A stretch of 18,499 nucleotides of DNA from Cytophagaceae bacterium (GTDB taxonomy: Bacteria; Bacteroidota; Bacteroidia; Cytophagales; Spirosomataceae), in NCBI GenBank assembly GCA_027485075.1, contig JAIXRT010000051.1:1-18499 (forward strand). The letters run 5' to 3'. Under the pieces are notes generated by a model that was not told the origin of the DNA, did not search any database, and worked only from the letters and a program-made list of their open reading frames with translations. A program made the position numbers and the translations under genes. Shown one piece after another: positions 14,801 to 18,499 of this stretch. The stretch's first letter is position 1, and the number at the start of each line of letters is the position of its first letter.

Positions 14801-15964
14801 ATGGTAAACAGAAGACTACTTCGTGTCAAAGCATTTCAGCAAATGTATGCTTACTGGACACAAGAACGTGCCCAATATCAATTGGCATTTGATGGATTAA
14901 CAGCCATTTTTCAGCCTGACTTATCTCTAATGATTGCCAAAGAAGACCAAACTCCACGTTTAGAAGGTCTTCGCAAATTAGCCGAAATCCAGTTAACAGA
15001 ATTTTTTCAAGGAGTACCTACCGAAGAAACAATCCCTACAGAGGCGCTAGAAGCAGCTAAATCCGTTCATCGCATTTATCAAAACAACGTCGCTAAAATT
15101 GCCAAGGAATTAAAGTTATCGATGGTGACGGAGGTTGAATCCATCTTCAAGCAATACTTGAAAATGCTTTATTTCATCCAAGCACTACCGATGATTGGAC
15201 AATGGGATGAGCAACGAAGACTATTAGAAAACCCTATTAAAACCTCAGTAATTAGTAAAAACAAGGTCTTAGCGATCATGCCGAAATGGCGTGATTTGCA
15301 ACAAGCTTTTACTGATTACAACATTGGCTGGGCGGAAGACGAGGAACATATGCTCAAGAAAGTCTTCATCGAAGGTATACTACCGGATGAGGCCTTTGTC
15401 TCGTACCTACCTACCGCAGGAAAAGATGTCACAGCAGATATCGAAATGATTAAATACATTTTGAAAAATTATCTGTTAAAACATCCCATCATGGCCGAAT
15501 ATTTCGAGGAAAAAGATTTAAATTGGCACCTAAATAAAGACGTCGTAAAAAGTTTAGCGACGAAAACATTCAAGGTCGAAGCACTCGAAGATTTACAAAT
15601 TCAACCCTTAGGATTACAGTGGGAAGATGACAAAAAATTCTTTGAAGAATTGTTCGATTATTGTGTGAAGGAAGACCTTCAATTAACACAATGGGTGAAT
15701 GATCAAACGAAAAACTGGGATATGGAGCGTTTAGCCACTACTGATTTAATCATATTAAAAATGGCGGTTGCAGAGATGATTCAATTCCCAAGTATACCCG
15801 TTAAAGTAAGTATCAACGAATTCATTGAGGTAGCCAAAAACTACTCCACACCGAAATCGGGATCATTTATCAATGGTATACTGGATGTGATTTCCATTCG
15901 TTTGATAAGTGAAAAAATTATACAAAAATCAGGTCGAGGATTAATCGACATAGCTAGTAAATAA
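14801..15964 (+). CDS. nusB: Transcription antitermination factor NusB, long Bacteroidota form
   Basis: A 387-aa protein. It begins 'MVNRRLLRVKAFQQMYAYWTQ', matching NusB's 'RRxxRxxAxQxLY' start. The classic C-terminal NusB fold is at about residues 245-375: 'WDMERLATTDLIILKMAVAEM', 'IPVKVSINEFIEVAKNYSTPKSGSFINGILDVI'. Between them is an insertion of about 200 residues, making it well over twice the 140-aa length of Escherichia coli NusB. Long NusB proteins are usual in Bacteroidota. NusB pairs with NusE (S10) on boxA RNA to keep RNA polymerase on rRNA operons. It heads an operon with about 1-nt spacing to the next gene. The identity is clear; the role of the insertion is not known to me. Confidence 0.93.
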   Translation: MVNRRLLRVKAFQQMYAYWTQERAQYQLAFDGLTAIFQPDLSLMIAKEDQTPRLEGLRKLAEIQLTEFFQGVPTEETIPTEALEAAKSVHRIYQNNVAKIAKELKLSMVTEVESIFKQYLKMLYFIQALPMIGQWDEQRRLLENPIKTSVISKNKVLAIMPKWRDLQQAFTDYNIGWAEDEEHMLKKVFIEGILPDEAFVSYLPTAGKDVTADIEMIKYILKNYLLKHPIMAEYFEEKDLNWHLNKDVVKSLATKTFKVEALEDLQIQPLGLQWEDDKKFFEELFDYCVKEDLQLTQWVNDQTKNWDMERLATTDLIILKMAVAEMIQFPSIPVKVSINEFIEVAKNYSTPKSGSFINGILDVISIRLISEKIIQKSGRGLIDIASK

Positions 15965-16712: not shown

Positions 16713-17015
16713 ATGATCACCTTACAAGCAGCTAATCCACAAATCATGCAAATTGTCCTTTTCGGAGGTATTTTTGTGGTATTTTATTTTTTCATGATTC
16801 GTCCACAACAACAAAAAGCGAAAGAAGCGAAAAAATTTATTGAAGAATTGAAAACAGGCGACAAAGTCGTGACCATCGGTGGTGCACACGGAACTGTCAT
16901 TACTATTCGTGAGAAAACAATTGTGGTGGAGGTAGATGCCAACAAAGGTGTCCGCATGGTTTTTGAAAAATCAGCCATCTCCAAAGATGCTTCTTCACGT
17001 TTAACAGAAGAATAA
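16713..17015 (+). CDS. yajC: Preprotein translocase accessory subunit YajC
   Basis: A 100-aa protein with one N-terminal transmembrane helix (about 12-30, 'IVLFGGIFVVFYFFMIRPQQ') and a cytoplasmic domain containing 'KxxxEELKTGDKVVTIGGAHGTVITI' and 'VEVDANKGVRMVFEKSAI'. 'FFMIRPQQQKAKE' right after the helix is the family signature. YajC associates with SecDF next to the SecYEG translocon. It lies 7 nt after the DUF1573 gene and 4 nt before coaE. Length and motifs match the family well. Confidence 0.95.
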   Translation: MITLQAANPQIMQIVLFGGIFVVFYFFMIRPQQQKAKEAKKFIEELKTGDKVVTIGGAHGTVITIREKTIVVEVDANKGVRMVFEKSAISKDASSRLTEE

Positions 17016-17019
17016 ATAG

Positions 17020-18438
17020 ATGTCTACAAGCCTGAAACCCTTTATCGGCATTACAGGCGGAATAGGATCCGGCAAATCGATGATTTGTCGGATTTTTTCT
17101 ATGCTGGGCATTCCCGTATTTGAGGCTGATCTGGCGGCCCGAAATCTCTGTGATACCGATCCAGAGGTTAAATCCGCCATCACAGAGGAATTTGGTCCTC
17201 AGGCATATTTAGCTGACGGTAGCTACAATCGGGAAGGCATCAAAAAGATCTTGCAAAAATACCCACAAGACATCGAAGTCCTCAATCGGATCATTCATCC
17301 TGCGGTGCGCAAAGCAGCTACCGCTTGGCTTGAAACTGCACCCGATGCCCCATTTTATTTATATGAATCCGCGCTGATTACGCCCAAAAACAAGCCAGAA
17401 CATTTGGATCAGCTTATTGCTGTATCTTGTCCGCTGGAAGAACGAATCAGCCACATCCAAAAAAGAAAACACATGAACTACATGCAAACCATGCAGATCA
17501 TTGATATTCAACCTAAACCTACAAGCTATATGAAAGGCGCCGAATTCATCATTGAAAACAGCCAAAAAACACGCATTTGGCCACAAATTGAACACATTTA
17601 TAAAAGTATGGGTGGCGTTATGCTACTACTCTTAATCAGCTTAAGCAGCTTTGGACAAATCAAAACCATGACGTTTAATATTCGACTCGACACGGATTCG
17701 GATGGACAAGATCAATGGAAATACCGCGCTAAACATTGTGTTGAATTAATTAAATACCATGAGGCTGATATCATCGGAATGCAAGAAGCTTTTGTGCATC
17801 AAATCAAGGATTTTGCCAAAGAATTGCCCGGTTACAAGTGGTTTGGCAAAGGACGTGACGATGGCAAAGAAGAAGGTGAATTCTCCCCCCTATTTTACAA
17901 TACTAAGAAATTTAAATTACTGAAAGAGAGCACATTTTGGCTTTCCGATTCCTGCGAAAAAGTAGGTTTTGGCTGGGATGCTGCCTGCCGCAGAGTCATG
18001 ACCTGGGGTCAATTTCAAGAGATCAAATCAGGTAAAAAATTCTACGTATTTAATACCCATTTCGACCATTTAGGTAAAATCGCACGCCGCGAAAGTGCCA
18101 AATTAGTCCTACGAAAAGTAGCGGAAATCGCAGGCAAATCTCCAGCGGTTATTACAGGTGACTTTAACGCTACGCCAGATGATGAGCCGATTCAAATTTT
18201 GGTGGACCCCACAAATCCCAACAAACTAACTGACGCGGAAACAATAAGCAAAAAGGGACACTATGGCCCATATAGCTCATTTAATGGGTTCAAAAAAGAA
18301 CAAGAAGGACGTCACATTGACTACATATTTGTTAAAAATGGCGTGCGTGTAAACCAACATGCCACCCATTCAGAAACGTGGGAAAACCGATATCCGACCG
18401 ATCATTTTCCGGTCAGCGCAGTTGTTGAATTGCCTTAA
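17020..18438 (+). CDS. coaE: Dephospho-CoA kinase fused in frame to EEP-family hydrolase
   Basis: One 472-aa frame holds two complete proteins. Residues 1 to about 196 are dephospho-CoA kinase, the last step of coenzyme A synthesis. It has a P-loop GITGGIGSGKS (10-20), 'GIPVFEADLAAR', 'IIHPAVRK' and 'YESALI', and normal CoaE length. Residues 197-472 are an endonuclease/exonuclease/phosphatase-family hydrolase with all expected residues: 'MTFNIR', E256 in GMQEAF, H347 in NTHFDH, D381 and N383 in GDFNAT, 'HIDYIF', and D461/H462 in TDHFP. The junction M197-GGV-M201-LLLLISLSSFGQ looks like a signal peptide, normal for the secreted hydrolase as a stand-alone gene. So this is either a real fusion or two genes whose coaE stop was lost by mutation or sequence error. 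An internal start at 17608 or 17620 could still make the hydrolase alone. Confidence 0.85.
   Translation: MSTSLKPFIGITGGIGSGKSMICRIFSMLGIPVFEADLAARNLCDTDPEVKSAITEEFGPQAYLADGSYNREGIKKILQKYPQDIEVLNRIIHPAVRKAATAWLETAPDAPFYLYESALITPKNKPEHLDQLIAVSCPLEERISHIQKRKHMNYMQTMQIIDIQPKPTSYMKGAEFIIENSQKTRIWPQIEHIYKSMGGVMLLLLISLSSFGQIKTMTFNIRLDTDSDGQDQWKYRAKHCVELIKYHEADIIGMQEAFVHQIKDFAKELPGYKWFGKGRDDGKEEGEFSPLFYNTKKFKLLKESTFWLSDSCEKVGFGWDAACRRVMTWGQFQEIKSGKKFYVFNTHFDHLGKIARRESAKLVLRKVAEIAGKSPAVITGDFNATPDDEPIQILVDPTNPNKLTDAETISKKGHYGPYSSFNGFKKEQEGRHIDYIFVKNGVRVNQHATHSETWENRYPTDHFPVSAVVELP
17608..17658 (+). other. Fusion junction: internal start and signal-peptide-like segment
   Basis: In-frame ATGs at 17608 (M197) and 17620 (M201) precede a hydrophobic run (LLLLISLSSFG) ending in Q, the usual +1 residue after Bacteroidota signal peptidase cleavage. 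No lysine or arginine follows either ATG; the nearest is K195 in the kinase part. If translation starts here, a 276- or 272-aa exported hydrolase results. Confidence 0.5.
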
Positions 18439-18479: not shown

Positions 18480-18499
18480 ATGGAAAATTTTATCGTTTC
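18480..18499 (+). CDS. dnaX: Probable DnaX (DNA polymerase III gamma/tau) start, partial
   Basis: Only six full codons are in the window: MENFIV, with two bases (TC) of the next. Bacteroidota DnaX typically begins MENFIVSARKYRP, and TC fits serine. The gene runs off the right edge, 41 nt after the coaE/hydrolase stop. A one-mismatch -7 box (CATCTTTG, 18441-18448) lies between. With so few residues this is a suggestion rather than an identification. Confidence 0.45.

Follow-up and report, generated by a model that had tools for sequence, protein, structure and literature searches.

A dephospho-CoA kinase gene fused to an exported-type EEP hydrolase gene with a predicted internal signal peptide at the join

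Dephospho-CoA kinase (CoaE) catalyses the last step of coenzyme A (CoA) synthesis, which bacteria cannot do without. In Bradyrhizobium, the cytochrome b/c1 precursor FbcH is reportedly cut at an internal signal peptide into two mature proteins, which are said to be subunits of one membrane complex. The gene described here would resemble FbcH in giving two mature proteins from a single chain by way of an internal signal peptide, but these would be a cytosolic essential enzyme and an unrelated exported hydrolase. CoaE itself has been described with a C-terminal partner, since the mycobacterial CoaE Rv1631 is fused to a UPF0157 (GrpB) domain that helps folding, and the available excerpt of that study mentions no signal peptide (PMC2765170). 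As far as that excerpt goes, both proteins consist of an N-terminal CoaE and a C-terminal second domain, but the partner is UPF0157 in Rv1631 and, in our case, an EEP hydrolase behind a predicted internal signal peptide (PMC2765170). For exported proteins of Bacteroidetes, the available part of another study gives a Q-rule, under which most substrates of signal peptidase I have Gln as their new N-terminus after the cut, with a share of over 60% in P. gingivalis (PMC5837995). No CoaE-EEP fusion was found in the titles and abstract openings of the literature on CoaE fusions, on bacterial polyproteins and on signals inside proteins.

Sequence and predicted structure of the fused gene

The window, by which we mean the whole 18,499-nucleotide stretch of DNA that was analysed, carries on its plus strand an ORF with an ATG start and no internal stop codon that reads from CoaE into an EEP hydrolase. 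The features at this locus are as follows.

16713..17015, + strand: yajC, immediately 5' of coaE::EEP
17020..18438, + strand: fused coaE::EEP gene, 472 aa, stop codon included (ORF and Pfam)
17020..17604, + strand: CoaE half, residues 1-195 (Pfam PF01121 at 8-183)
17602..17655, + strand: predicted internal signal peptide, residues 195-212 (K SMGG VMLLLLISL SSFG), hydrophobic core 200-208 (sequence properties in 30/30 fused sequences; low model confidence at 200-209)
17653..17658, + strand: predicted signal peptidase I site between Gly212 and Gln213 following the Q-rule (A/G/S at -1 and Q at +1 in 30/30 fused sequences; putative cleavage)
17656..18435, + strand: EEP hydrolase half, residues 213-472 (Pfam PF03372 at 217-462)
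18480..18499, + strand: start of dnaX, truncated by the window end (window sequence; same start in relatives; Pfam match of the gene of relative L033)

Of 38 genomes of the window's genus, which is probably Aquirufa, 29 have the fused ORF open, as does Sandaracinomonas limnophila (G196, the only genome seen of its genus, g52), with 58-97% identity. These 30 fused sequences form the basis of the comparisons below. The gene order in the window is nusB-ytxH-DUF1573-yajC-coaE::EEP-dnaX, and the part from nusB to coaE was present in all ten loci examined from the two fusion-bearing genera (five unfused loci, G014, and the fused G007, G021, G059 and G196). None of nusB, ytxH, DUF1573 and yajC occurred near coaE in the stretches around this gene in G148, G167 and G171, which belong to other genera. 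On the 3' side, dnaX comes next in relatives both with and without the fusion; by tblastn, a dnaX-type gene followed coaE in 34 of 36 loci, the remaining two (the window's own genome, G000, and G014) being incomplete. The NusB-family protein of the window (14801-15964) has its Pfam match at residues 275-363 of 387, and the approximately 270 residues ahead of the NusB domain are without a Pfam match.

Both halves of the 472-aa product matched their Pfam domains above the cut-offs, CoaE (PF01121) as a full domain at residues 8-183 with 117.3 bits (cut-off 27) and Exo_endo_phos (PF03372) at residues 217-462 with 63.4 bits (cut-off 24.5). The CoaE half was also matched by NCBIfam TIGR00152 (86.1 bits, cut-off 65.55), and its P-loop, GITGGIGSGKS in the window, follows the pattern GxTGGxGSGKS at residues 10-20 that was invariant across the fused sequences. 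It shares with ordinary CoaE (PF01121; TIGR00152) the full domain, the P-loop, the conserved residues and the status of a single match in the genome, but it continues into a C-terminal exported-type hydrolase instead of ending at residue ~195-200. In the EEP half, seven positions (N220, E256, H347, D349, D381, N383 and H462) were invariant in the 30-sequence alignment. These positions presumably have the catalytic roles assigned to them in the family, among them the Asn, Glu, Asp/Asn and His residues N220, E256, D381, N383 and H462.

We modelled the fusion with AlphaFold2 from a 32-row alignment composed of 26 of the 30 fused sequences, three standalone EEPs and three CoaEs (two from other genera, one from an unfused member of the genus). 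The model had a mean pLDDT of 80.8 and showed two folded domains, with pLDDT below 50 between them at residues 200-209 and shorter weak stretches at residues 1-4, 225-230 and 311-315. Because the pTM was 0.57, we make no claim on the relative placement of the domains. The last CoaE helix extends to residue 198, the hydrophobic core occupies 200-208 and the first EEP strand starts at 213, leaving no linker. A first, sequence-only reading of this locus had described a full-length CoaE running straight into a full-length EEP hydrolase with its catalytic residues kept, no linker and a signal-peptide-like stretch at the join, and this description was borne out on each point, the properties of the stretch being conserved in all 30 fused sequences.

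Foldseek matched the CoaE half of the model to the dephospho-CoA kinases 9bkz, 6ari and 1n3b and the EEP half to 3g6s (E = 2.7e-24), 3mpr and 4c1r. These three are the closest solved EEP relatives, come from Bacteroidota and share the fold and family, with 35-40% of the domain identical as aligned by Foldseek; 3g6s and 3mpr are without a named activity, and 4c1r is the mannosyl-6-phosphatase BT3783. The sequence match to the mannosyl-6-phosphatase reached 2e-48, with 3g6s closer still. This similarity in sequence and fold suggests that the EEP half is a phosphate-ester hydrolase.

Distribution, origin and loss of the fusion

In the available part of a study on Aquirufa, the genus has two branches, and Sandaracinomonas is among its nearest genera (PMC11861422). 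The fused genomes of the window's genus include G007 (2.5 Mb, G+C content of 41.8% over 12 kb) and G021 (3.1 Mb, 37.1% over 13 kb), as well as G015 and G027, whose fused sequences start at a contig edge. As for the rest of the 38 genomes, five had CoaE alone, one (G014) ends by contig edge inside CoaE, and in three that are 81-90% complete (G011, G030 and G031) CoaE was not found.

A lost stop codon between two neighbouring genes was among the explanations first put forward. An error of assembly, binning or sequencing could remove such a stop, and the window's genome is indeed fragmented (286 contigs, 87% complete). We looked in the relatives for a stop codon or frameshift near position 17600, and the join was open in 30 genomes from different assemblies, including the one-contig genome G007 and the isolate genome of S. 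limnophila FSY-15. Moreover, the frame remained open despite length changes in the join. These genomes refute such an error, whose probability we place close to nil. At the level of the DNA, the reading as a true fusion is secure.

The fused gene was the sole CoaE match in 29 of the 30 fused genomes (the window's own genome, G000, together with G059, G196 and all 26 further ones). The thirtieth, G027, had a second CoaE match at the end of another contig, which looks like a broken assembly of one gene, the fused gene being split across two contig ends (G027:C29 and G027:C46) with overlapping CoaE parts. With no other CoaE match in these genomes, the essential step of CoA synthesis must depend on the fused chain, and it is likely that the CoaE half phosphorylates dephospho-CoA.

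Outside the two genera, we found no further CoaE-EEP fusion among the matches listed for 222 genomes of the family, sorted by E-value and headed by the fused sequences, and for an overlapping set of 291 genomes of the order, with matches of E-values up to 1e-40 only. Two long EEP frames, in G280 and G117, were inspected from listings in which others reached 415 aa, and no CoaE was found in either with E-values up to 1; the EEP frame of G280, given as 649 aa in the match listing, was 281 aa as read. In G117 (L102, G117:C111:5500-11500, minus strand), a genome of another genus that is 81% complete and in 560 contigs, a 709-aa frame has the EEP in frame behind a different protein, which by eye looks like an exported metallophosphatase, and the join again has a hydrophobic stretch and A-Q (SFVLLMCLSIASLAQ). 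This could be a second case or an artefact of assembly. In the window's genome, a second match to the extreme end of the EEP (33 residues, 97% identical) lies on another contig (G000:C260:3088-3186), perhaps through strain variation or a misassembled end.

The CoaE-only members of the genus (G001, G004, G009, G008 and G024) carry two types of scar. In G001, G004 and G009, the CoaE frame covers only the first few residues of the former signal peptide before it stops (..KSITGLT or ..KSIAGLA); the final few bases of the EEP come next, and then the spacer as in fused loci. In G008 and G024, the CoaE end is joined to the spacer that sits 3' of the EEP stop codon in fused relatives. No EEP was found elsewhere in any of the nine genus members searched, which have no fused EEP and are 79-94% complete (G001, G004, G008, G009, G011, G014, G024, G030 and G031).

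We built a tree from five flanking proteins in 36 genomes, some rows with partial data, and rooted it on G196 by assumption. The unfused groups fell in two clades (SH-aLRT 100 each), alongside seven and six fused genomes, respectively, and parsimony on this partly unresolved tree gave three changes with G014 excluded. In the EEP tree, all 30 fused sequences formed one clade (99) that grouped with G148 and G167. In the CoaE tree, the 30 fused sequences and the five unfused genus members formed one clade (98), with G001, G004 and G009 within a fused group and G008 and G024 beside seven fused sequences. G196 sat among the genus members in both the EEP and the CoaE trees, with a long branch in the latter, against the rooting of the flank tree. 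We also considered that the unfused genus members might retain ancestral separate genes, and rejected this because their scars match fused loci and the flank tree groups them with fused genomes. The history that fits best is one fusion event followed by at least two deletions of the EEP, and a stop codon lost between neighbouring genes is the likely evolutionary origin of the fusion. CoaE persists in genomes that have lost the EEP, so there is no tight coupling between the two functions.

Purifying selection acts on both domains. For 14 pairs chosen by hand, some with a genome in common, pooled pN/pS was 0.130 for CoaE, 0.052 for the EEP and 0.272 for the join, the last from few sites with single pairs ranging from 0.04 to 0.92 and one undefined. 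The EEP is therefore the dispensable yet slower-evolving half (0.052 against 0.130), contrary to naive expectation.

The join as a predicted internal signal peptide

The join varied in sequence and length among the fused sequences and was the least conserved part, with a mean pairwise identity of 0.31 over 435 pairs compared with 0.55 for CoaE and 0.78 for the EEP. Its properties were constant, as all 30 sequences had a strong hydrophobic core (best 9-residue Kyte-Doolittle mean of 2.49-3.70), at least one K/R within the nine residues ending at the first residue of the core, and a small residue (A/G/S) at -1 with Gln at +1. For comparison, we hand-picked 24 EEPs from the family matches, representing 15 genera other than the two with the fusion, and in all 24 a hydrophobic leader ended in [AGS]-Q at the corresponding place. 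Because the properties are kept in 30/30 fused sequences and are matched by 24/24 EEP leaders, we read the join as the signal peptide with which the EEP once began and which would now be internal. By sequence pattern, the charged n-region, core, small -1 residue and +1 Gln of a Sec/signal peptidase I substrate under the Q-rule are all present, but the signal begins ~195 residues into the ORF rather than at its N-terminus. The other Bacteroidota EEP relatives examined have their signal at or near their own N-terminus (G117 excepted), whereas that of the window lies behind CoaE. In four joins (L012, L013, L014 and L015), two successive small-Gln sites occur (for example SAQ...SAQ), a pattern that would fit a duplication or an extension of the processing site.

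A hydrophobic join could also anchor an uncleaved, membrane-tethered bifunctional protein. The charges agree with an N-in/C-out topology, and in 11 of the 30 sequences (G196, the G029 group and the G007 group) the uncharged stretch before the Gln spans 21-23 residues, approximately the length of a membrane helix. However, this span is just 16-18 residues in 18 of the 30, the window among them, and the [AGS]-Q processing site is retained throughout, so we give tethering only a slim chance. The span measure is distorted by charge near the processing site, with a value of 3 for G026 and of 1 or 3 for three standalone leaders.

Another alternative is that the whole protein stays in the cytosol, where the EEP half would have CoA or a related nucleotide coenzyme as its substrate and would thereby oppose or proof-read CoaE. 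Nocturnin, an enzyme that takes the 2'-phosphate off NADP(H), lends this idea some substance, since it was among the structural matches of the model (including the NADPH-bound 6nf0) and two nocturnin sequences matched the EEP half marginally (E = 0.008); in addition, both halves are intact. Even so, the mannosyl-6-phosphatase is far closer than nocturnin, the signal-peptide properties and the +1 Gln are retained in every fused sequence, the 24 EEPs elsewhere look exported, and at least two deletions have removed the EEP but not CoaE. We judge a cytosolic bifunctional enzyme to be very unlikely.

Translation and proposed fate of the fused chain

An exported hydrolase could be made separately if a second start codon near the end of CoaE gave a normal pre-EEP with its own signal, the long fusion then being a minor or degraded product. 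In the 30 fused sequences, we listed all in-frame ATG, GTG and TTG codons between the Gln and a point 45 residues ahead of MTFN. An ATG that would give a leader with a charged n-region was present in nine, and a TTG in two more, 19 to 28 residues ahead of the Gln; such leaders can be of textbook form, as in G036 (MKTLSCVLLFILLGFQSQG, followed by Gln). The start is not conserved, though: six sequences had only GTG or TTG, 33 or 38 residues back, 13 had none of the three codons in a position to yield a charged leader, and in S. limnophila the listed stretch contained none of them at all. In the window, the ATGs at residues 197 and 201 would give leaders that carry no positive charge. The earlier proposal of internal initiation was consequently rejected as the general mechanism, and it holds as a possibility for the lineages with a suitable ATG or TTG. 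Initiation at an internal codon may occur in some lineages, but, barring unusual codons, it cannot be the reason why the arrangement has been conserved. Overall, we consider this explanation unlikely.

We favour, with moderate confidence, an inherited gene fusion that would act as a two-compartment precursor, in effect a small polyprotein. Ribosomes would produce one CoaE-EEP chain, of which the CoaE half would fold in the cytosol and perform the final step of CoA synthesis. What used to be the N-terminal signal of the EEP would, from its internal position, engage the Sec machinery in the fashion of a type II signal, the EEP would be threaded into the periplasm, and signal peptidase I would cut between the small residue and the Gln. 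The Gln of the freed hydrolase would then be capped as pyroglutamate, as expected from the Q-rule, and CoaE would end in a short hydrophobic tail, by which it may stay attached to the inner membrane until the tail is trimmed off. Two observations count against this model: some lineages have an ATG or TTG well placed for separate initiation of the EEP, and the repeated loss of the EEP beside a retained CoaE shows that nothing ties the two functions to each other. A further step, which we consider unlikely, is that the single chain is obligatory and that the final reaction of CoA synthesis is retained at the inner membrane by the leftover hydrophobic tail, or by the chain itself if it stays uncut, physically coupling export to CoA supply.

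The fusion seems to be a natural and stable example of a single gene that serves two compartments through a signal peptide in the middle of the chain, with an essential enzyme in the place of the 'n-region'. It offers a means of testing whether a folded cytosolic domain of 195 residues before a short signal is tolerated by signal recognition and by signal peptidase I. With two types of deletion scar preserved, it also opens to study how such fusions arise and break down. For annotation, it calls for caution, as tools that consider only the N-terminus would probably miss this export signal.
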